From: Bacteroidota bacterium
GTDB taxonomy: Bacteria; Bacteroidota; Bacteroidia; UBA4408
DNA length: 64,000 nt
Assembly (NCBI GenBank): GCA_963169745.1
Contig: CAUJCU010000002.1
Location: forward strand, 62,001 to 126,000
Direction of reading: 5' to 3'
The position numbers were made by a program, and so were the translations under genes. This document shows positions 17,700 through 56,459 of the stretch, piece by piece; within the stretch, counting starts at the first letter, position 1; every line of letters begins with the position of its first letter. The notes under the pieces were generated by a model. That model was not told where the DNA came from, did not search any database, and saw nothing but the letters and a program-made list of their open reading frames with translations.

Positions 17700-18551
17700 C
17701 TAATATTCCCACAAATCGTGTTCCATATTAAAAATATCTTCTTTTATCTTTTCAGCTTCAAGTAAGGCATCTAAACCTGATAGGTAGGTATTAATTCTTC
17801 GATTATACACATTACTTTCTTTATAGATATAACTGCTAAAGCGTCTCTTCCAGAAAATATCATCGTATGTTCTTCGTTCTGCATCATTAGATTTATTATA
17901 TACCTCGGCATTAGCAAATAAAAATCTTGCCTCTGGAAAATAAATCCAAAACATAGTTTCGATTCGTTGCTCGCCATTTTTTTGAAAAAAGCGTATAGGA
18001 GCTATGCCTATAATTCGCACATCCATAACAGAACGTTGCTTGTCAAAAAACCAATCTTCCTTAACCCTAAATTGCTTTACTTCAGATGGGATAAACTGTC
18101 TTTGAGTAATTTTCTCAACTAAATCACCTGTTGCTGGATCATCAATTTGAGTGGTATCCCAAGTATTGTATTTGTTATCTAAATCTGTTTTTGATAATTG
18201 CGTTGTAAAATCTCCATCATTTTCATCGCTGTATGCAATCAGATTACCGTCTTTAGTAACTCCATCCCATATAAGTTGCATTAGACTCTTTCTGCCCGCA
18301 ATAACATCTATAGGGAAATACATATCGTGATTGATTTTTTCACGTAAATCAATAATACGCCATATTCTTTTTGTCCACATCACATCGGCCTCACGTAGAA
18401 ACGCATACGGCACCATTCTTCGTTCAACGGAATTTTCTTTTACATATACCCCATCTAATATATTAGATTGTGCCTTTACAGTTTTTAAAAAACCTGTTAA
18501 AATAAAAACACACATTATAGGTACAAGCGATTTTCTGAATATGATTTTCAT
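17700..18551 (-). CDS. gldN: Gliding motility / T9SS protein GldN
   Basis: 283 residues with a signal peptide (cleavage near VKAQ). The conserved GldN region is recognisable: EREMVPYAFLREADVMW-like N-terminal part, INHDMYFPID, and the long RFFQKNGEQR...FWIYFPEAR stretch. GldN (PorN) forms, with GldK, a periplasmic ring attached to the outer membrane and needed for type IX secretion. It is the last gene of the gldKLMN cluster, 22 bp after gldM. Confidence 0.95.
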   Translation of the reverse strand: MKIIFRKSLVPIMCVFILTGFLKTVKAQSNILDGVYVKENSVERRMVPYAFLREADVMWTKRIWRIIDLREKINHDMYFPIDVIAGRKSLMQLIWDGVTKDGNLIAYSDENDGDFTTQLSKTDLDNKYNTWDTTQIDDPATGDLVEKITQRQFIPSEVKQFRVKEDWFFDKQRSVMDVRIIGIAPIRFFQKNGEQRIETMFWIYFPEARFLFANAEVYNKSNDAERRTYDDIFWKRRFSSYIYKESNVYNRRINTYLSGLDALLEAEKIKEDIFNMEHDLWEY

Positions 18552-18573: not shown

Positions 18574-20244
18574 TTAACCATTAACCTTTAAAGTTACAGG
18601 AGGCAAGGTGCGAACCGTACCATCCGGCATTCTCACTTTTATATCTTCAAATATAACCCTACCGTTATTTTTCACTTTAGAAAGCAGTGCTGAAACCTCT
18701 CCTGAATACGCATATCCTTGAGCTGATGCCGACTTAAATTCACCTCCAACATTTAAAGCAACGGAGTAAGAAGAAACAGTAACTTTCAAATCAAAATCAA
18801 AATTTTTCATTACTGCTGCCACACCACCAGATGCCATCAGAAGGCTTTTAGAAACAACCCCACCAGATTCTTGACCACCAACTTTAGCTATAGGATCAGG
18901 AAGAGGCTTTACTCGAAATTTAAAACCTCCGGGTATTGTTTTGTTTGTACCCCCTTGTTTTACAGCAACAGAGATACTTGCATCTTTTGTTCCCTTAGCA
19001 CATTTGATAATATAAGATCCCTTTTTGGCAGGGTCAGGAGAAATCGTTCCTCCAGTAATGCTTGGCGTTATCAAATCAGGAGCATAACCTGGAACTGAAA
19101 TATCAACAGGATTATCTACTCCAACATAAAGAACATTCATCTTTGTTGGCGATACCACTAAAGCAGGAGGTGTTACAATATAACTTGAAGCAAAGGGATA
19201 GTAATTAAATCCACCTCCAGGTTTTTCAACTTGAATTACACCACTCCACTTTTGTTCACCGGTTGCTCCAGTACCCGTTTTATATTTACCTACACCGCCT
19301 GAAACAGGAATTTCTTTTCCGGGGTCACTTTTATTTAATCTTGGGTCCGTTTCGCCATCATTTTTTGACGTATCAACTGCACAAAGTAAAATTTTAGGAT
19401 TACTTGAGCTATTTGAGGCCACAAGTAATACGTCAGCTTTATATTCGTCACCTTGAATTACAACGCTTGAAGGTGCAATAACTTTAGCTTGTAGTTTATC
19501 AAATTTAAAATCACCTGCTGACACAGAAGATAATAACTTTGTAACAACATCTACTTCTGCATTTAATACTTGACTTTGAAGCGCTGTAAGATTGGTAATT
19601 ACAGCAGCTAAAGGCATATGATAAAAGTTAATAATTTCCCATCCTGCTTTTACGCCATTCTCTACTCCGTCAGGCAAATCGAGTCCACTTTTTAACTTCG
19701 TCTCCATATCCTTTTTATCAGCAGGCAAAAACAATTTCTGATCATCAAATAATTTAGTCATGTCTTCTCTGTACTTAGCTACTCGCTTTTTTAAGTCAAG
19801 AGCTGTCAATTCACCGTCTTTAGGCCTTGCTGGTTCACTTCCTATTAATACTTCAGTTGGTATATCATAATTATCCTTAGCTTCTACGTACTTTAAACTA
19901 AGTGTATCTGCAATTGCCTTTTCCTTTTTGTCGGTTTTTTCGATAACATGCTTCTTAACCTTTTCAATATATTCATCTAGTTCGGCCGAGTATTTTTTTG
20001 CTTTTTGAGCTCGGTCATAATAAGGTTGTGTTTTAATTTGGTCTTTTTCAAGTGCTGCTTTAAAATCGGTATAAAGTTTTTGATTCTTATTTTCAAAGTT
20101 TTTGTTTGTTCTTTCTAATCCTTCATTTACAATAACAAAGGCATCCAAAATACTTTTAGCTACGTTCAATGCAAGCATTGCCGTAAGAACCAAGTACATC
20201 ATACCGATCATCTTCTGTCTTGGGGTTTCTTTTCCTCCAGCCAT
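18574..20244 (-). CDS. gldM: Gliding motility / T9SS motor protein GldM
   Basis: 556 residues. The N-terminus (MAGGKETPRQKMIGMMYLVL) leads into a single membrane helix (about 13-35) and a long helical periplasmic domain, followed by beta-rich domains to the C-terminus (VRPLPDP-like segment KFRVKPLPDPIAKVGG). GldM crosses the periplasm as a dimer driven by GldL and contacts the GldKN ring. The start and length are typical. It lies 46 bp after gldL. Confidence 0.96.
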   Translation of the reverse strand: MAGGKETPRQKMIGMMYLVLTAMLALNVAKSILDAFVIVNEGLERTNKNFENKNQKLYTDFKAALEKDQIKTQPYYDRAQKAKKYSAELDEYIEKVKKHVIEKTDKKEKAIADTLSLKYVEAKDNYDIPTEVLIGSEPARPKDGELTALDLKKRVAKYREDMTKLFDDQKLFLPADKKDMETKLKSGLDLPDGVENGVKAGWEIINFYHMPLAAVITNLTALQSQVLNAEVDVVTKLLSSVSAGDFKFDKLQAKVIAPSSVVIQGDEYKADVLLVASNSSSNPKILLCAVDTSKNDGETDPRLNKSDPGKEIPVSGGVGKYKTGTGATGEQKWSGVIQVEKPGGGFNYYPFASSYIVTPPALVVSPTKMNVLYVGVDNPVDISVPGYAPDLITPSITGGTISPDPAKKGSYIIKCAKGTKDASISVAVKQGGTNKTIPGGFKFRVKPLPDPIAKVGGQESGGVVSKSLLMASGGVAAVMKNFDFDLKVTVSSYSVALNVGGEFKSASAQGYAYSGEVSALLSKVKNNGRVIFEDIKVRMPDGTVRTLPPVTLKVNG

Positions 20245-20290: not shown

Positions 20291-21118
20291 TTATCCATTG
20301 CTTCTCATGGCTCCAAGCATATTGCCATAAACTGTGTTCAATGCACTAAGGTTGGTTGCCAATTTGCCAATTTCTTCTTTATATTTATTGGTATCTTGAA
20401 CAGAGTCTTGCAGGTTTCTCCAAAGAGACTCAATTCCTTCATACATTTTAGTTGTTGATTTCAAATGCTCACTTGAACCTTGTAATTGAAGTTCGTAAAC
20501 AGCATTAAGTGCGCTAAGATTTTTAGATACTTGTTGTAATTGTTCTCCGTAGGCTTGTCCATCAATATTGGTGTTAGACAAATCAGCTAATGAAGCTGTA
20601 GCTTTAACATAGCTTTTACTTAACTCGCTCATATTTTGGGTAGCTCCTTCAACTTCTTTAACAAAGGTGGCAGTAGCAACAGAGGCATCAGCAATGTTTG
20701 ACATTTTACCAGCTTGTTCGCTTAAGCTTTTCATACCAGCTCCTAAACTTTCTATTAACTCAGGGCCTATTTTTGCTTCTTCAAGCATTTTATCAAGCTC
20801 TTGTGAAATTGGATCTTTACTACCTTTACCTACGGCTTTATGTCCGGCCCCATGACCTTTTTCATCTTCCTCATCGTGCATTCCGCGAAGTTCAGGATAG
20901 ACTAAACTCCAATCTACTTCCTGATGTACCGGCTCAAAAGCAGAGAAAAAGAAAATAATTGCCTCAATTGACAATCCACCTACAAGCATTGGACCTGCTC
21001 CGGGCCAGTGTTGTATTTTAAACATTGCTCCTACAATTACGATGGATGCTCCCCATCCATAAAGAAAAGCCATGAATTTCTTCCCTTTTTTTGACTGAAG
21101 TGTTTGAATGATTCCCAT
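20291..21118 (-). CDS. gldL: Gliding motility / T9SS motor protein GldL
   Basis: 275 residues: a short N-terminus, two membrane helices (about 17-33 and 43-62) and a long cytoplasmic helical part. Membrane residues corresponding to those known to matter in Flavobacterium GldL are present: Tyr20, Lys34, His37, Glu52 within the second helix and Glu62 in AFEPV. These form the proton path of the motor. The cytoplasmic part is rich in Ser/Asn/Leu repeats (LSALN appears twice) and reads as a coiled coil. The loop between the helices is about four residues shorter than in F. johnsoniae. Confidence 0.96.
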   Translation of the reverse strand: MGIIQTLQSKKGKKFMAFLYGWGASIVIVGAMFKIQHWPGAGPMLVGGLSIEAIIFFFSAFEPVHQEVDWSLVYPELRGMHDEEDEKGHGAGHKAVGKGSKDPISQELDKMLEEAKIGPELIESLGAGMKSLSEQAGKMSNIADASVATATFVKEVEGATQNMSELSKSYVKATASLADLSNTNIDGQAYGEQLQQVSKNLSALNAVYELQLQGSSEHLKSTTKMYEGIESLWRNLQDSVQDTNKYKEEIGKLATNLSALNTVYGNMLGAMRSNG

Positions 21119-21193: not shown

Positions 21194-22504
21194 TTATTCG
21201 GTTGAAACGTCCATACCTTTACCTCTTCCAAGATATGACATTACGCATCGAAAACCGATATAACATTTAGCAGTATCTTGATATTCGTAAGTACGGGTTC
21301 CCACTTGTGTATAGTAAGATATGTCTTTCCATGAACCTCCACGAATAACTTTTCTTTTTAAAGCTGGTAAGTCATTATCATTGGCTTCGTACTGATAATC
21401 CATATTTAAGTCGTGTGCAAAGTTATAAGCTGATTCATCATAAGCATTATTAGTCCATTCGGCAACGTTACCAGCCATTTCATATAAACCAAAATTGTTC
21501 GGGTTATAGGTGCCTACGCGTACGGTATGAAAACCTCCATCATCCGTATAATTACCACGCATAGGTTTAAAGTTAGCTAAGAAGCACCCGCGTTGATTTC
21601 TGATATATGGCCCTCCCCAAGGATATGGTGAATTACTCAGACCTCCGCGAGCTGCATATTCCCATTCACTTTCTGTAGGTAGTCTAAAATCTTGTACCAT
21701 TGGAACATCTTCATTTACAAGAAAGCTGTTCATAAGCTGTGTACGCCAAATACAAAAGGCTCTAGCTTGCTTCCATGTAACACCAACCACCGGGTATTCA
21801 TCGTAGGCCGGATGCCAAAAATACATATTGGTCATAGGCTCATTAAAAGAATAGGTAAAATCATGAATCCAAGCTAAAGTATCTGGATATACGTTTATTA
21901 CATCTTTCTTAATAAATACCGATCTGTCAATTAAACCCTGTTCTCTGCTTTCTTCTCTGCGTGCTGCTTCACGTAAATCAATCCAATAATACTCAAACAT
22001 TAATTTCCGAGTATCTATTTCTTTTCTTCGATAAAAGCGTTCATTTTCAGGCAAATACATTTCATTTAATCCTTCACGAGCTTCAGGAGAATCATATTTT
22101 AACTTTTCTTCCCAATTTACCTGAGGCCCTGGTGTAATATCTTCCCCATATATATCCTGGCTTACCAGGAAGTTATCGTTCCCTGCTTCACCTAAGGTTC
22201 TTCTGGCAATGGAGTCACGTACCCAGTAAACAAACTGTCGGTACTCATTATTTGTAATTTCTGTTTCATCCATATAAAAGGCCTGAACAGAAACTGTTTT
22301 TGATTGCGTGGTTTGAGCAAAAGGTACATCTTGATCGCCCGGTCCCATAGTATAGCTCCCCATTTTAACATAGAGCATCCCATAAGGATCCAAATCATAC
22401 CAAGCCTGTCGGTTTTGAACTCCAATCAATTGACCATTGCCATCATTACTACATGATGAAAACAGCACTACGATTACAGCCAGCAAAGAAAGAATTTTCT
22501 TCAT
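21194..22504 (-). CDS. gldK: Gliding motility / T9SS lipoprotein GldK
   Basis: 436 residues: a lipoprotein signal (LLAVIVVLFSSC, lipid Cys about 18) and a formylglycine-generating-enzyme-like domain (about 40-425), seen in MYVKMGSYTMG, FYMDETEITNNEYRQFV, VGVTWKQARAFC, RLPTESEWEYAARGG, GNVAEWTNNAY and VIRGGSWKD. In GldK this fold is structural. It forms the outer-membrane ring with GldN. First gene of gldKLMN; the 168-bp gap before it shows no TAnnTTTG element, so it may be read through from porP. Confidence 0.96.
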   Translation of the reverse strand: MKKILSLLAVIVVLFSSCSNDGNGQLIGVQNRQAWYDLDPYGMLYVKMGSYTMGPGDQDVPFAQTTQSKTVSVQAFYMDETEITNNEYRQFVYWVRDSIARRTLGEAGNDNFLVSQDIYGEDITPGPQVNWEEKLKYDSPEAREGLNEMYLPENERFYRRKEIDTRKLMFEYYWIDLREAARREESREQGLIDRSVFIKKDVINVYPDTLAWIHDFTYSFNEPMTNMYFWHPAYDEYPVVGVTWKQARAFCIWRTQLMNSFLVNEDVPMVQDFRLPTESEWEYAARGGLSNSPYPWGGPYIRNQRGCFLANFKPMRGNYTDDGGFHTVRVGTYNPNNFGLYEMAGNVAEWTNNAYDESAYNFAHDLNMDYQYEANDNDLPALKRKVIRGGSWKDISYYTQVGTRTYEYQDTAKCYIGFRCVMSYLGRGKGMDVSTE

Positions 22505-22672: not shown

Positions 22673-23608
22673 TTATAAGAAGCGTGGGTTCTTGTATCGA
22701 GTAATCTTCTTAGGAGGTGTTATATTATAGCAGAAGCCAAGCATAATTTCGTGTGATCCGCTGCTGTGATTTTTAATATTAGATGTAGTTAAATCGTAAG
22801 AGTAGCCTATTCTGTAGTTTCCTTTACCATTGGCTAAGGTTCCCTGATAGCCTAACATTGGAACAATAGCATCTTGTAAACGATAAGATAGTCCTGCCCA
22901 AAGCATATTATTATAAAGTACATTTGCATTTACATCTAACTGGGTAGATGCTGCATCTGTTTTTAAAAGAAAGTTAGGGCGTACTGTTAACATTTCGTTG
23001 ATAGCATATTCGTATCCGGCTGTAACGTACCAATGGCGTGCCATTAAATATTGTAGGTTAGTTCCTTTTAATTGAGGAGCCAATAAGTGCAAACCAGATA
23101 TACCAGCATATAATTTTCCAGGAATATGGTAATGAGCCCCAAATCCTAAATCCATTGCTTTATCACTAACAGAAGATTGTGGGATTAAATTATCATTTTG
23201 TTGAATGGCAATATAATTTCCACTAAACGATTTATTCAAAATTCCGAAATCTAAGCCTACCCCTAAATTTCCAGGTCCTATATTAAGGCGATAGGCACCG
23301 GCTAATTTAGCCATAAATGTATTTTCAAAGCCCAACTTATCAGCTATAATGGTGGCGCCAACTCCAATGGTTTGCTCTCCAATTTTAATAGGAGCATCAA
23401 GGGTTACTAAGGTAGTTTTAGGGGCACCGTCAAAACCAACCCACTGCTGACGGTTGATAACAGTAGCACACAAATACTCACTTGCACCAGCATAACCCGG
23501 ATTAGTTGACATTCGTGTAAACATTTGCTGACTGAACTGTGGATCTTGTTGTGCGAATGTTTGAAATGCGCTAGCAGCAATGATTACTGAAGTAAGGATT
23601 TTCTTCAT
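22673..23608 (-). CDS. PorP/SprF family outer-membrane protein
   Basis: 311 residues with a signal peptide (cleavage near TFAQQ) followed by the family hallmark DPQFSQQMF...NPGYAGASE and RQQWVGFDGAPKT. The remainder alternates short beta strands and ends in LGFCYNITPP and a basic tail. Family members form outer-membrane barrels that anchor T9SS-secreted adhesins or couple to the motor. Position directly upstream of gldK on the same strand is the common arrangement. Several paralogues usually exist per genome, so sprF is not claimed. Confidence 0.93.
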   Translation of the reverse strand: MKKILTSVIIAASAFQTFAQQDPQFSQQMFTRMSTNPGYAGASEYLCATVINRQQWVGFDGAPKTTLVTLDAPIKIGEQTIGVGATIIADKLGFENTFMAKLAGAYRLNIGPGNLGVGLDFGILNKSFSGNYIAIQQNDNLIPQSSVSDKAMDLGFGAHYHIPGKLYAGISGLHLLAPQLKGTNLQYLMARHWYVTAGYEYAINEMLTVRPNFLLKTDAASTQLDVNANVLYNNMLWAGLSYRLQDAIVPMLGYQGTLANGKGNYRIGYSYDLTTSNIKNHSSGSHEIMLGFCYNITPPKKITRYKNPRFL

Positions 23609-23768: not shown

Positions 23769-24941
23769 TTAAATCAATTTTTGATAGGTTTGCCACCATC
23801 TTTCCGGGATTCCTTCATTACATGCTGTTTGATAATCGGCATAAGTGCATGGTATAAGGTGATGCCTTTCGTATTTTGACTTATTGTTAGGATAAGGAAC
23901 CTCCATCCACCAGCGGTCGCTTTTTATACTTTTATAAAATACAATATCTTGTTTGCTTTCGCTGATAAACGCCCGATACTTTAAAAATTGTGAATTACCG
24001 CTTGATGGGAAGTCATTTTTTCTTTGTGTTACCCCTTCAATAAAGCACCATATTGCTTGAGCGATAAGATGTGCAGTTGTTCCGTTAATATCAAATTTGG
24101 GATTATATTCATAGAAACCAACAGAAGAAAGTTTATCACTTAATCCGGCATATCGTGCAATTTGACAGAACTCTTCTCCAGAAAACCCGTTGGGTAAAGC
24201 ATTATAATTTCCCGGTGCATCACTTCGTTTCACAGCTGAAACATCAAATGAAACTATATCAGCATTTCTAACAATAGGTTCTGTTTCTTCAATATTAGAT
24301 CTGAAAAAACCCAAGCGGTAACTATCAAAAAATAATTTTTGCATCAGTTCAATAACAGCCGGATCAACCAAATAAGTTTGATATCCTATGATACTGAAAT
24401 TGAACAGGTAATTTGGAGTATAAAGAATAATTTTATTCAAATAGGTTTGGGCATCTAATTCGTCATCAACAAAACCCAAATTATAATATGCATCAACCGA
24501 TACAATGTTTACTAATTGTTCTAAGTTTTGATAGCCTCTGTAATTAGCAAAAGTTAAGTCTTGGCTTCCGCCAATGATAATCGGAATAATATTTACTTTC
24601 ACTAAAAATTCAACCGTAGATGTTAAGGCGTAGTAGGTATCTTCAATTTTATGTCCCGGTTCAATATTACCTAGGTCAACGATTTGAAATTGGTTACCCA
24701 AGCCCCATAATTTATATAAATATTTTCTGATTTCATCGGGTCCTTCGGCACAGTCTTCATTGAGAACAGCACCTCTTCCTTCTTTTACCCCAATAATAAC
24801 CAAGCGGGATTCTTCTATTGACGGAAAATCTCTATCCATAGTATATTTTACTATAGAATATCCAAGTTGGTTTTCCAGATACTCGTATCCTTCACTCAAT
24901 TTTTGTAAATCAATTGGCTTAAAGAAAACCGATAAATCCAA
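23769..24941 (-). CDS. Ureohydrolase-fold protein with degenerate metal site
   Basis: 390 residues resembling arginase, agmatinase and formimidoylglutamase over about 50-320. The landmarks stand in order but are eroded: GGSQDL (about 124) in place of GGDHS, VDAYYNLG (about 146) in place of DAHxDxN, and SFDVSAVKRSDAPG (about 228) in place of SxDxDxxDPxxAPG. Four of the six manganese ligands are thereby replaced (His to Gln, His to Tyr, Asp to Asn, Asp to Ser). A Trp/Tyr-rich C-terminal extension of about 60 residues (RWWMEVPYP, RWWQTYQKL) is added. Catalysis by the classical mechanism is unlikely. It starts 2 nt after topA ends and sits upstream of the T9SS genes. Databases may label it formimidoylglutamase; the residues argue against that activity. 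Confidence 0.8.
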   Translation of the reverse strand: MDLSVFFKPIDLQKLSEGYEYLENQLGYSIVKYTMDRDFPSIEESRLVIIGVKEGRGAVLNEDCAEGPDEIRKYLYKLWGLGNQFQIVDLGNIEPGHKIEDTYYALTSTVEFLVKVNIIPIIIGGSQDLTFANYRGYQNLEQLVNIVSVDAYYNLGFVDDELDAQTYLNKIILYTPNYLFNFSIIGYQTYLVDPAVIELMQKLFFDSYRLGFFRSNIEETEPIVRNADIVSFDVSAVKRSDAPGNYNALPNGFSGEEFCQIARYAGLSDKLSSVGFYEYNPKFDINGTTAHLIAQAIWCFIEGVTQRKNDFPSSGNSQFLKYRAFISESKQDIVFYKSIKSDRWWMEVPYPNNKSKYERHHLIPCTYADYQTACNEGIPERWWQTYQKLI

Positions 24942-24943
24942 GT

Positions 24944-27349
24944 TTATTTCTTTTTAGTAGTTGATTTTTTTGGAGCAGCCTTTTTAGCTGGTGATTTTTT
25001 GGTCTTTGCTTTTGTCTTTTCCGATGGGTTAATTGCCTTAGTCTTAGTTTTAGTTTTTATTTGTTCTGTTCCTTCAGACGAACTTATTATTTCGAGGCAA
25101 TCAGCCAAAGTTAAGTTTTGAGCTTCCTTTGTTCCTTTAGGTATTTTATAATTCTTCTTATTTGCAGCAATATATGGCCCCCAGCGTCCGTTCAAAACTT
25201 GAATATCATGTTCTGGGAATTGGGCTATAACTCTTTCGCTATCTTTTTTTCGTTTTATTTCGATCAGTTCAATTGCTCTAGGCAGTGTAATAGATATAGG
25301 ATCATCTGTCTTTGTAAGAGAATAAAATTGGCCGTTGTGGCGTAGGTAAGGACCAAAACGTCCTGCTGAAACGATGATATCATTATTTTCATAAACTCCA
25401 ACCTCACGGGGCAATTTAAAAAGTGCCAAAGCCTCATTAAGAGTAATACTTTCAATACGTTGGTTACTGTTTAGGCTTGAGAATTTGGGCTTCTCGTTTT
25501 CATCTGCTTCACCTATTTGAATAATAGGGCCGAAACGACCAATACGCGCATACACATTTTTTCCTGTAACAGGTTCAACGCCTAAAAGTCTTTCTCCGGA
25601 GGCTCGGTCAGAATTCTCAATCGTATTTTGAACGTGTTTATGGAAAGGGTTATAGAACGCTTCGAGCATTTTTTGCCATTTCAAATTACCTTCTGCAATT
25701 TCATCAAACTCTTTTTCTACCGAAGCCGTAAAATTGTAATCCATAATTTCATCAAAATTGTCTATAAGGAAATCGGTAACTACAATACCGATATCGGTAG
25801 GAAACAATTTGGCACGTTCGGCACCGGTATTCATTGATTCAGTTTGTTGTATGATTTTCCCACTTTTTAGGAGCAAGGTTTCAAAAGTTCTTTTAATTGC
25901 TTCACGATCTTCTTTAACCACATAGCCTCTTTTTTGTACCGTTGAGATGGTTGGTGCATAAGTTGATGGGCGTCCTATTCCCAACTCTTCGAGTTTTTTA
26001 ACTAAGGCTGCTTCACTATAGCGCGGAGGATGATAAGTGAATTTCTGAGTAGCTTTTATTTCATCGTAGTTTAAGCTGTCGTTAATTTTCATAAGAGGCA
26101 ACATTCCTTCTTGCTCTTCTGTGTCTTCATCATCGGTAGATTCGATATAGAGTTTAAGAAAACCATCAAATTTTATGACTTCACCATTGGCAACAAAAGT
26201 ATCACTACCATTATTATTCTTTATTTGAACATTTGTTTTTTCGAGCAATGCATCACTCATCTGAGAAGCTACTGTTCTTTTCCAAATGAGGTCATACAGT
26301 TTTTTCTCTTGATTATCGCCATCTAATTTATGTACATTAAAATAAGTTGGCCGAATGGCCTCATGAGCTTCTTGTGCACTTTTCGATTTTGTTTTGAACT
26401 GGCGTTTATAGTGATAGGCCTTCCCGTATTGTTTAAGAATTTCTTCTTGAGCTGCTTCTAAAGCTGTTTCAGACAAATTTACGGAGTCGGTTCTCATATA
26501 TGTAATTTTTCCACTTTCGTATAAACGTTGTGCAACGCTCATAGTTTGTGCTACAGAAAACCCCAGCTTGCGGCTTGCCTCTTGTTGTAAAGTAGACGTG
26601 GTAAAGGGTGCTGTTGGGCTCTTTTTAGCCGGTGAGGTTTGTAAATCACTTACTCTAAACTGTGCATCCTGACAATCTTTGAGTATTTTTTGCGCATCGG
26701 CCAAAGAAGCAATTTTTCGAACTATCTCTGCTTTAAAGCGCTCTCCTTTTTGGGTTGAAAAAACGGCAGTTATTTTATAATAACTCTCTGATTTAAAATT
26801 ATTTATTTCACGTTCACGTTCCACAATAAGCCTAACAGCTACAGATTGTACCCTTCCTGCCGATAAAGAAGGCTTTATTTTTTTCCACAAAACAGGGGAC
26901 AATTCAAAGCCCACTAAACGATCTAATATTCTGCGAGCTTGTTGTGCATCTACAAGGTTAGAATCAATTTTTCGTGGATTGTTAATGGCATTTTTAATTG
27001 CATTTTGAGTTATTTCATGAAATACAATGCGCTTCGTGCTTTCCTCTTTAAGATTAAGCGTTTCGAATAAATGCCAAGAAATTGCTTCTCCCTCCCGATC
27101 TTCATCGGTTGCTAGCCAAACGGTTTGTGCATTTTCAGATAATTTCTTTAAATCATTGACAACTTTTAGTTTATCTTCTGATACTTCATAATGAGGTAGA
27201 AATTTCTTTTCTACGTTTACTCCTAATCCTTTTTTTACTAAGTCGCGGACATGTCCAAAACTGGACTTTACAGTATAATCTTTCCCTAAAAAACCCTCTA
27301 TAGTTTTAGCCTTTGCAGGCGACTCAACAATCACTAAATTCTTTGTCAT
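24944..27349 (-). CDS. topA: DNA topoisomerase I (type IA)
   Basis: 801 residues from the ATG at 27349 (MTKNLVIVESPAKAKTI); a longer frame reaches 27367 but adds six residues not found in the family. The Toprim domain holds VIVESPAKAK and ATDEDREGEAISW. The active tyrosine lies in KITYMRTDS (about 283). The C-terminal third has cysteine-poor topoisomerase repeats (GRFGPIIQIGE, GRFGPYLRHNGQFY, GRWGPYIAANKKNY) and a Lys/Ala/Thr-rich tail of histone-H1 type, common in Bacteroidota. It relaxes negative supercoils. The ureohydrolase-like gene follows after 2 nt. Confidence 0.97.
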   Translation of the reverse strand: MTKNLVIVESPAKAKTIEGFLGKDYTVKSSFGHVRDLVKKGLGVNVEKKFLPHYEVSEDKLKVVNDLKKLSENAQTVWLATDEDREGEAISWHLFETLNLKEESTKRIVFHEITQNAIKNAINNPRKIDSNLVDAQQARRILDRLVGFELSPVLWKKIKPSLSAGRVQSVAVRLIVEREREINNFKSESYYKITAVFSTQKGERFKAEIVRKIASLADAQKILKDCQDAQFRVSDLQTSPAKKSPTAPFTTSTLQQEASRKLGFSVAQTMSVAQRLYESGKITYMRTDSVNLSETALEAAQEEILKQYGKAYHYKRQFKTKSKSAQEAHEAIRPTYFNVHKLDGDNQEKKLYDLIWKRTVASQMSDALLEKTNVQIKNNNGSDTFVANGEVIKFDGFLKLYIESTDDEDTEEQEGMLPLMKINDSLNYDEIKATQKFTYHPPRYSEAALVKKLEELGIGRPSTYAPTISTVQKRGYVVKEDREAIKRTFETLLLKSGKIIQQTESMNTGAERAKLFPTDIGIVVTDFLIDNFDEIMDYNFTASVEKEFDEIAEGNLKWQKMLEAFYNPFHKHVQNTIENSDRASGERLLGVEPVTGKNVYARIGRFGPIIQIGEADENEKPKFSSLNSNQRIESITLNEALALFKLPREVGVYENNDIIVSAGRFGPYLRHNGQFYSLTKTDDPISITLPRAIELIEIKRKKDSERVIAQFPEHDIQVLNGRWGPYIAANKKNYKIPKGTKEAQNLTLADCLEIISSSEGTEQIKTKTKTKAINPSEKTKAKTKKSPAKKAAPKKSTTKKK

Positions 27350-27477
27350 AGGCAATATTTTTCGCACTAAAAAAGGACAAAGTAAAGCAATTTATTTTAT
27401 TTACAAGTTAGATTTATATACCAGGCGGGAAAACAAAACGTTTGTACTATGAATGTGTATATGACTTTGCTAAATAA

Positions 27478-54729: not shown

Positions 54730-54737
54730 TATCTTTG
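54730..54737 (+). promoter_or_regulatory. ftcD promoter -7 element
   Basis: TATCTTTG, 27 nt before the ATG at 54765. No clear upstream box. It overlaps the alternative TTG at 54735, excluding that start. Confidence 0.55.
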
Positions 54738-54764
54738 TCGTACATTATTTACATCTCAAAATTT

Positions 54765-56459
54765 ATGCAACAACTTATTGAATGCGTTCCTAATTTTAGT
54801 GAAGGGAACGATATGCACATTATTCAACAAATTACCACTGAAATAGAAAAAACAGATGGGGTAAAGCTCTTAAATGTTGACCCTGGAAAAGCTACCAACC
54901 GTACTGTAGTAACCTTTGTTGGAACACCAGATGCCGTAATAGAGGCGGCATTTAAAGCCATAAAGAAAGCTGGAGAACTTATTGATATGAGTAAACAAAA
55001 AGGAGAGCATCCACGTATGGGAGCTACCGATGTATGTCCATTTATCCCGGTAAGCAATATTAGTATGGAAGAAACAGCAAAGTATGCCACAATACTTGCA
55101 AAGCGTGTAGGACAAGAATTAAATATTCCTGTTTATTTATACGAAGCAGCCCAACCCAAAAAAGAGCGCGCCAATTTAAGTATTATAAGAGCTGGAGAGT
55201 ATGAAGGATTTTTCAAAAAAATAAAACAAGCAGCATGGAAGCCTGATTTTGGTCCGGCTGAATTTGATGCCAAAAGAGGTGGAACTGTTATTGGTGCGCG
55301 TGATTTTTTGGTAGCTTATAATATTAATTTGAATACAACTTCAACCCGAAGAGCCAATGCTATTGCTTTTGATGTACGTGAAGCCGGTCGGGTAAAAAGA
55401 GAAGGCCATCCTTTAACAGGGAAAATAGTTACTGACGAAGCCGGAAATCCGATACACATTCCAGGCTCTTTAAAAGCAGTAAAAGCAATTGGTTGGTACA
55501 TTGAAGAGTATGGGATAGCTCAAATATCTATGAACTTGACCAATATAAATGTAACCCCGGTTCATATTGCCTTTGACGAAGTTTGTAACAAGGCCAATGA
55601 GCGCGGAATTCGTGTTACCGGATCTGAAATTGTAGGACTCATTCCATTGAAGGCCATGCTTGAGGCCGGAAAATATTTTTTGGAAAAGCAACAACGTAGT
55701 GTTGGTATTTCTGAAAAAGAATTAATAAAAATAGCCGTAAAATCAATGGGTTTAGATGAGCTTACTCCATTTAACCCTGACGAAAAAATTATAGAGTACA
55801 TACTTCGCAATAAAAAAGATACTCGTTTGGTAAATATGACCTTAACTGAATTTGCTGATGAAACAGCAGGAGAAAGTCCTGCTCCCGGTGGAGGCTCAAT
55901 ATCGGCTTATATGGGAACATTAGGTGTATCATTAGGCATTATGGTAGCTAACCTCTCATCGCATAAAAAAGGTTGGGACGAGCAATGGAAATTTTTTAGT
56001 GACTGGGCTGCCAAAGGGCAGGCCATTAAGAAAGAAATATTGGCTTTGGTTGATGAGGATACAAAATCATTCAATAATATAATGGAAGCCTTTGCGCTAC
56101 CTAAAGATAGCGATGACGAGAAAAGACATCGTAAGGAAGCTATTCAGGTAGCTACCCGTTACGCAACACTAACTCCATTTCAAATTATGAAAACCTGTTA
56201 CAGCAGTATGGAATTAATTAAAGAAATGGTAGAAAAAGGAAACCCTAACTCTGTAACTGATGCTGCTGTAGGTGCTTTATGTGCTCGTTCTGCAGTTATT
56301 GGGGCTTTTATGAATGTTCGTATTAATGCCGTTGGATTGCATGATAAAGAATGGGCTGAAAAATTAATACGTGAAGGGAATGAAATTCAAACACAAGCAA
56401 TTGCTAAAGAGCTTGAAATAATTCGCCTAACCAATCAAAAAATTGATGCAGCAAAATAG
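54765..56459 (+). CDS. ftcD: Fused glutamate formimidoyltransferase / formimidoyltetrahydrofolate cyclodeaminase
   Basis: 564 residues from the ATG at 54765 (MQQLIECVPNFSEGND, the typical start). The N-terminal part (1-320) is the formimidoyltransferase: GEHPRMGATDVCPFIP (about 78), RAGEYEGFF, KRGGTVIGARDFLVAYN. The C-terminal part (about 360-560) is the cyclodeaminase: LTEFADETAGESPAPGGGSISAYMG and SVTDAAVGALCARSA. The enzyme channels formimino groups from histidine breakdown into the folate pool. It is monocistronic; no hut gene lies beside it. Confidence 0.96.
   Translation: MQQLIECVPNFSEGNDMHIIQQITTEIEKTDGVKLLNVDPGKATNRTVVTFVGTPDAVIEAAFKAIKKAGELIDMSKQKGEHPRMGATDVCPFIPVSNISMEETAKYATILAKRVGQELNIPVYLYEAAQPKKERANLSIIRAGEYEGFFKKIKQAAWKPDFGPAEFDAKRGGTVIGARDFLVAYNINLNTTSTRRANAIAFDVREAGRVKREGHPLTGKIVTDEAGNPIHIPGSLKAVKAIGWYIEEYGIAQISMNLTNINVTPVHIAFDEVCNKANERGIRVTGSEIVGLIPLKAMLEAGKYFLEKQQRSVGISEKELIKIAVKSMGLDELTPFNPDEKIIEYILRNKKDTRLVNMTLTEFADETAGESPAPGGGSISAYMGTLGVSLGIMVANLSSHKKGWDEQWKFFSDWAAKGQAIKKEILALVDEDTKSFNNIMEAFALPKDSDDEKRHRKEAIQVATRYATLTPFQIMKTCYSSMELIKEMVEKGNPNSVTDAAVGALCARSAVIGAFMNVRINAVGLHDKEWAEKLIREGNEIQTQAIAKELEIIRLTNQKIDAAK

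Follow-up and report, generated by a model that had tools for sequence, protein, structure and literature searches.

In arginases, the ligands of Mn-A are H101, D124, D128 and D232, and those of Mn-B are D124, H126, D232 and D234. Histone deacetylases are arginase-fold proteins in which one metal site has been kept, the Mn-B equivalent. Pseudo-ureohydrolases are already a known kind: MetCb, the inactive arginase-family subunit of metformin hydrolase, is a binding partner (PMC11271267; PDB 8x3g and 8ryi), and, according to the same source, Trypanosoma brucei has an arginase-like protein with the ureohydrolase fold whose evolution dispensed with the binuclear manganese cluster (Hai et al. 2015, cited in PMC11271267). 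For the T9SS, two reports connect PorX with GldL: in F. johnsoniae it binds the part of GldL that lies in the cytoplasm (PMC10951265), and PMC5005315 also supports the link. By sequence and by fold, the nearest relatives of the protein that we analyze here are HutG and the T. cruzi formiminoglutamase (TIGR01227; 1xfk, 3m1r, 4mxr), with which it shares the arginase fold over residues 43-305.

The gene is located in a stretch of 64,000 nucleotides from a Bacteroidota bacterium (contig CAUJCU010000002.1, positions 62,001 to 126,000), which we refer to as the window. On one strand, the order is topA, the pseudo-ureohydrolase gene, porP, gldK, gldL, gldM and gldN (Table 1). The TTG start of the gene is 2 bases past the topA stop codon, and it is supported by the conservation across orthologues of F7 and P9, both close to the N terminus. 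By inspection, no signal peptide or transmembrane segment was apparent in the 390-aa protein. Compared with its three nearest relatives, nonsynonymous differences were 0.14-0.16 per site and synonymous differences were near saturation (pN 0.14 vs a saturated pS of 0.80), so the gene is under purifying selection.

Table 1. Features of the window, with positions counted from its first nucleotide.
Feature	Position	Strand	Remarks
gldN/porN	17700..18551	-	
gldM/porM	18574..20244	-	motor protein
gldL/porL	20291..21118	-	motor protein
gldK/porK	21194..22504	-	
porP/sprF family	22673..23608	-	T9SS membrane protein
Pseudo-ureohydrolase gene	23769..24941	-	390 aa, TTG start
C-terminal extension, residues 306-390	23772..24026	-	strands and helices in the model; absent from active homologues
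Motif SFDVS	24237..24251	-	Asp232 kept (D233); Asp234 replaced by S235
Motif DAYYN	24480..24494	-	Asp124 kept (D150); His126 replaced by Y152; Asp128 replaced by N154
Motif GGSQD	24558..24572	-	Q127 in the His101 column
topA	24944..27367	-	directly upstream of the pseudo-ureohydrolase gene, 2 bp gap
FtcD-type glutamate formimidoyltransferase	54735..56459	+	574-aa frame, probably bifunctional with cyclodeaminase

Arginase (PF00491) is the sole Pfam domain in the 390-aa protein. It covers residues 47-300 with an E-value of 3.4e-18 and scores 66.5 bits over a gathering cut-off of 22, which places the protein in the superfamily. An AlphaFold2 model computed from 74 orthologues reached a pLDDT of 90.8 and a pTM of 0.91, and according to this model the protein has an arginase fold, with the T. 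cruzi formiminoglutamase, the metformin hydrolase subunits and B. subtilis HutG as its best PDB matches. Among NCBIfam models the nearest is HutG (TIGR01227, E 3.5e-22), for which the protein gave 79 bits, well below the equivalog cut-off of 229.15. The first-pass annotation had warned that automatic naming as a formimidoylglutamase would be wrong, and the low score bears this out. HutH and HutU are encoded elsewhere in the source genome, and the FtcD-type enzyme in the window can perform the formimidoylglutamate step, which makes HutG dispensable for histidine degradation. Labels that assign the family to this pathway are almost certainly wrong.

We aligned the ligand columns against HutG 1xfk and the T. 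cruzi formiminoglutamase. Of the six ligands of the binuclear Mn cluster (H, D, H, D, D, D), two are present in the window protein. The replacement of the other four, read at first pass from the motifs, was confirmed, with Q127, Y152, N154 and S235 in the His101, His126, Asp128 and Asp234 columns. Close homologues showed no shifted ligands, and the three nearest orthologues read DANFN, DADFN or DCDFN in the second motif and SFDIS in the third. The accompanying premise, that active members need all six ligands, turned out to be too strict, since the T. cruzi formiminoglutamase with Mn2+2 (4mxr) has Asn at the His101 position, as seen by comparison with its N114H variant (4myn). The same Asn, with all the other ligands present, occurs in two homologues from other classes (L086 and L091).

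Ligand and synteny counts were made on 127 extracted Bacteroidia orthologues. The complete set of six ligands occurs in none of them, and none combines the two ligands exclusive to Mn-B (His126 and Asp234). All six are intact in 26 of 29 active-like homologues, most of which come from other classes of the phylum. An Mn-A-like set (H/Q/N, D, D, D) is kept in 109 of the 127 orthologues: position 101 is Q in 69%, H in 18% and N in 11%, and the carboxylates Asp124, Asp128 and Asp232 are found in 96, 86 and 94%, with column entropies of 0.24, 0.71 and 0.31 bits. This compares with 3.71 bits, near random, at position 126 and 2.31 bits at position 234, which is S, T, G or N in most orthologues. From these counts, the Mn-B-only ligands have been consistently lost in the family and the Mn-A-like set has mostly been kept. 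Hence, the loss at all four columns holds for the window protein, but that which extends to the whole family is the loss at 126 and 234, Q127 and N154 being partly lineage-specific. The window protein is indeed more decayed at the ligands than most family members. At the extremes, many members of the f9 and f3 families retain the canonical H-D-D-D set, and in f4 and f6 members nearly every ligand is gone. Histone deacetylases keep the Mn-B equivalent, whereas this family keeps Mn-A-type residues. A single orthologue (L183) has five of the six ligands (H, D, H, D, D, S), with 234 still lost. In the f4 members L076-L080, the ligand positions read N, S, V/I, S, N, D, and the gene adjoins a cluster of exopolysaccharide type (glycosyltransferase, WecA-like protein, Wzc-like kinase) and not gld genes.

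The Trp-rich C-terminal extension noticed at first pass is a trait of the whole family. Beyond position 305, the median tail length is 85 residues in orthologues and 3 in active-like homologues, and the tail ranges from 68 to 89 residues in all clade members and from 0 to 7 in active homologues. Outside the decayed f4 group, W344, W345, C365, Y370 and P379 are present in 100% of the orthologues; F335, S338 and A373 are also conserved, and the pattern can be written as FYKS..RWW..P..C..DY..A..P..W. Its mean entropy (1.87 bits, vs 1.76 for the arginase domain) indicates that both parts are about equally conserved, and AlphaFold2 modelled it confidently except for two weaker stretches. The extension matched no recurrent named Pfam domain, and no second copy of it was found elsewhere in the source genome. 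In the f6 orthologues L081, L083 and L109, the N-terminal half is shortened or eroded and BLAST recognizes only the C-terminal half, extension included, which hints that it is this half that carries the function.

Full-length or nearly full-length copies of the protein occur in around 77 genomes of the same class from a phylum sample of 396. A profile built from 58 family members (A1) matched 369 of 395 class genomes, a few of them weakly. In a tree of 73 rows computed with IQ-TREE, from which the decayed families were excluded, the 56 pseudo-ureohydrolase rows fell on one side of a branch with an SH-aLRT of 100, and the long stem of the clade measured 1.71 changes per site; when the decayed families were included, FastTree gave the clade a support of just 0.64. 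These data fit a single origin and largely vertical inheritance of the family.

Conserved synteny together with conserved ligand loss had been proposed as the check on the first reading, and both were found across the family. Besides the absence of the full ligand set, 71 of 127 loci have topA as the immediate upstream neighbour on the same strand, often less than 10 bp away, and in 55 of 121 gldK follows downstream on that strand within three genes, so that adjacency to topA is commoner than adjacency to gldK. The order topA, gene, (porP), gldKLMN is present in all sampled loci of f5, which we infer to be Flavobacteriaceae, and in many MAGs of other families, and it persists among orthologues down to around 40% identity. 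A second T9SS neighbourhood was identified in f6, where the gene lies tail to tail with murF-gldJ: in L109, profile annotation placed murF-gldJ-porP and porU-porV beside it, and in L081 and L083 gene clustering gave the same murF-gldJ and porU-porV surroundings. In L190 (Parachryseolinea), the order is porU-porV-peptidase-gene. That the gene recurs at a second T9SS locus speaks against the mere inheritance of one gene order, although this is suggestive only, because several T9SS loci and lineages were examined. The sampled f2, f3, f9 and f10 genomes retain the gene with no T9SS gene beside it. Tandem gldN-like copies downstream of gldM were seen in many uncultured Bacteroidia (L118-L121, L139, L159, L166 and L174).

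Regarding co-occurrence, GldL was matched in 375 of the 395 class genomes, and profile A1 in 358 of those 375. The 17 GldL-positive genomes with no detectable copy belong to f11, f12, f13 (whose GldL-positive members are without the gene or show only a trace) and a few other families, and they imply that the T9SS can work without the pseudo-ureohydrolase. Among the 20 GldL-negative genomes, nine lack the gene (G230, G238, G352, G507 and G629 with at least 95% completeness), two gave very weak matches and nine have it. These nine carriers are mostly incomplete MAGs, and in one of them, G447, the absence of GldL is probably a gap, since PorU is present. A 99% complete genome (G360, locus L019) carries the gene with no GldL or GldM match. 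Its congener G002 has both motor proteins, so that G360 represents either a recent loss of the motor or an assembly gap. We had also considered PorU as a marker of T9SS presence, but it proved uninformative, as G002 has no PorU match. The few T9SS losses sampled fall in small genomes or in families already without the gene, and the correlation between gene and GldL, which is largely phylogenetic, was not counted as an independent test.

After removing topA distances, the distance correlation of the pseudo-ureohydrolase with GldK, GldL, GldM and GldN over 45 loci was 0.47-0.57, compared with 0.72-0.84 among the Gld proteins themselves. With miaB as an added control, the pseudo-ureohydrolase gave 0.35-0.48 against gldK, gldL and gldM, and miaB itself gave -0.08 against the pseudo-ureohydrolase. 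A second control gene, the neighbour c36, gave 0.36-0.45 against gldK and gldL, almost as high, and the covariation is for this reason weak evidence.

Several alternative readings have to be weighed against these data. One could argue that the protein is a working formimidoylglutamase, given that HutG is its nearest NCBIfam model, that HutG and formiminoglutamase are its nearest PDB matches and that the genome encodes HutH and HutU. We give this reading practically no credence: the score, the ligands (both Mn-B-only residues are lost) and the presence of FtcD rule it out, and the protein further departs from HutG in its C-terminal domain of around 85 aa and in its T9SS, not hut, context. It is also very improbable that the protein is paired, as an inactive subunit, with an active paralogue of arginase or agmatinase type, in the manner of MetCb with MetCa. 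The superfamily offers that precedent (PMC11271267), and the source genome does hold an intact arginase (C13:63625) and an agmatinase-like protein; however, no paralogue is adjacent to the gene, and in the 100% complete genome G099, and probably in G435, the pseudo-ureohydrolase is apparently the sole arginase-family protein (a single weak Pfam match), which contradicts an obligatory pairing. MetCb thus resembles the family in having several of the six ligands replaced and in being kept as a protein binder, and differs from it in its active partner and in lacking both the T9SS context and the distinct C-terminal domain. The T. brucei protein is eukaryotic and is not known to have a link to secretion.

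Two further readings carry more weight, though we regard both as unlikely. The protein could still be an enzyme, with a mononuclear Mn-A-type site (H/Q/N101, D124, D128, D232) devoted to another reaction or to metal-dependent ligand sensing. The frequency of this set among orthologues, the low entropy of its three aspartates compared with the Mn-B-only positions and the canonical residues of many f9 and f3 members speak for it, and the retained Asp residues may leave room for such a site. Against this, two of the four positions are occupied by Q and N in the window protein, the f4 and f6 members are without nearly all ligands (with f6 retaining the C-terminal region), and the conserved aspartates may be structural. 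Alternatively, the family could have a general cytoplasmic role with no link to secretion, its synteny being inherited from an ancestral topA-gld order. The retention of the gene in lineages without synteny and in G360, as well as the commoner adjacency to topA, would agree with this, but the order persists at around 40% protein identity, the gene recurs beside porU-porV or gldJ in other lineages and its presence tracks GldL in nearly all genomes. A bolder version of the secretion link, in which the protein is a missing, nearly class-wide cytoplasmic component of the T9SS and gliding machinery, a repurposed ureohydrolase whose residual single-metal site senses a metal or metabolite and gates GldLM through the C-terminal domain, seems to us rather doubtful.

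The reading that we favour, and consider fairly probable, is that of a vertically inherited Bacteroidia family of cytoplasmic pseudo-ureohydrolases that act by binding and serve the T9SS as accessory adaptors or regulators. In an ancestral guanidino or formimidoyl hydrolase, the Mn-B half of the binuclear site would have disappeared and the C-terminal domain would have been added, and the resulting protein would bind instead of hydrolyzing. We infer that it is cytoplasmic and devoid of ureohydrolase activity. The probable loss of ureohydrolase catalysis is well supported, and the coupling of the family to the T9SS is moderately supported. The binding or scaffold function proposed at first pass agrees with the conserved ligand loss, and a single-metal (Mn-A) activity may still be retained. 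The secretion role proposed with it gains from the neighbourhood, the second T9SS locus, the co-occurrence and the modest covariation, and is weakened by the 17 GldL-positive genomes without the gene and by G360. As for the contact with the machine, GldL is the natural candidate partner because its cytoplasmic tail already binds a cytoplasmic regulator, PorX; by this analogy, a contact with that tail is most plausible, albeit speculative. Both proteins would be cytoplasmic, with an enzyme-type domain and tied to the T9SS motor, but PorX has other folds (CheY, PglZ) and keeps its phosphodiesterase activity.

Among the open-access papers searched, none described a class-wide family that has a C-terminal domain of its own and is linked to the T9SS, and our results correct a misannotation that is likely to recur in many genomes. 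Work on the T9SS has relied largely on mutant screens and on the P. gingivalis system. If the protein is a T9SS accessory factor, its gene is conserved and would be easy to test in most other Bacteroidia, gliding flavobacteria included. If our reading is true, the family would be an ancient, class-wide case of a ureohydrolase turned binding protein.
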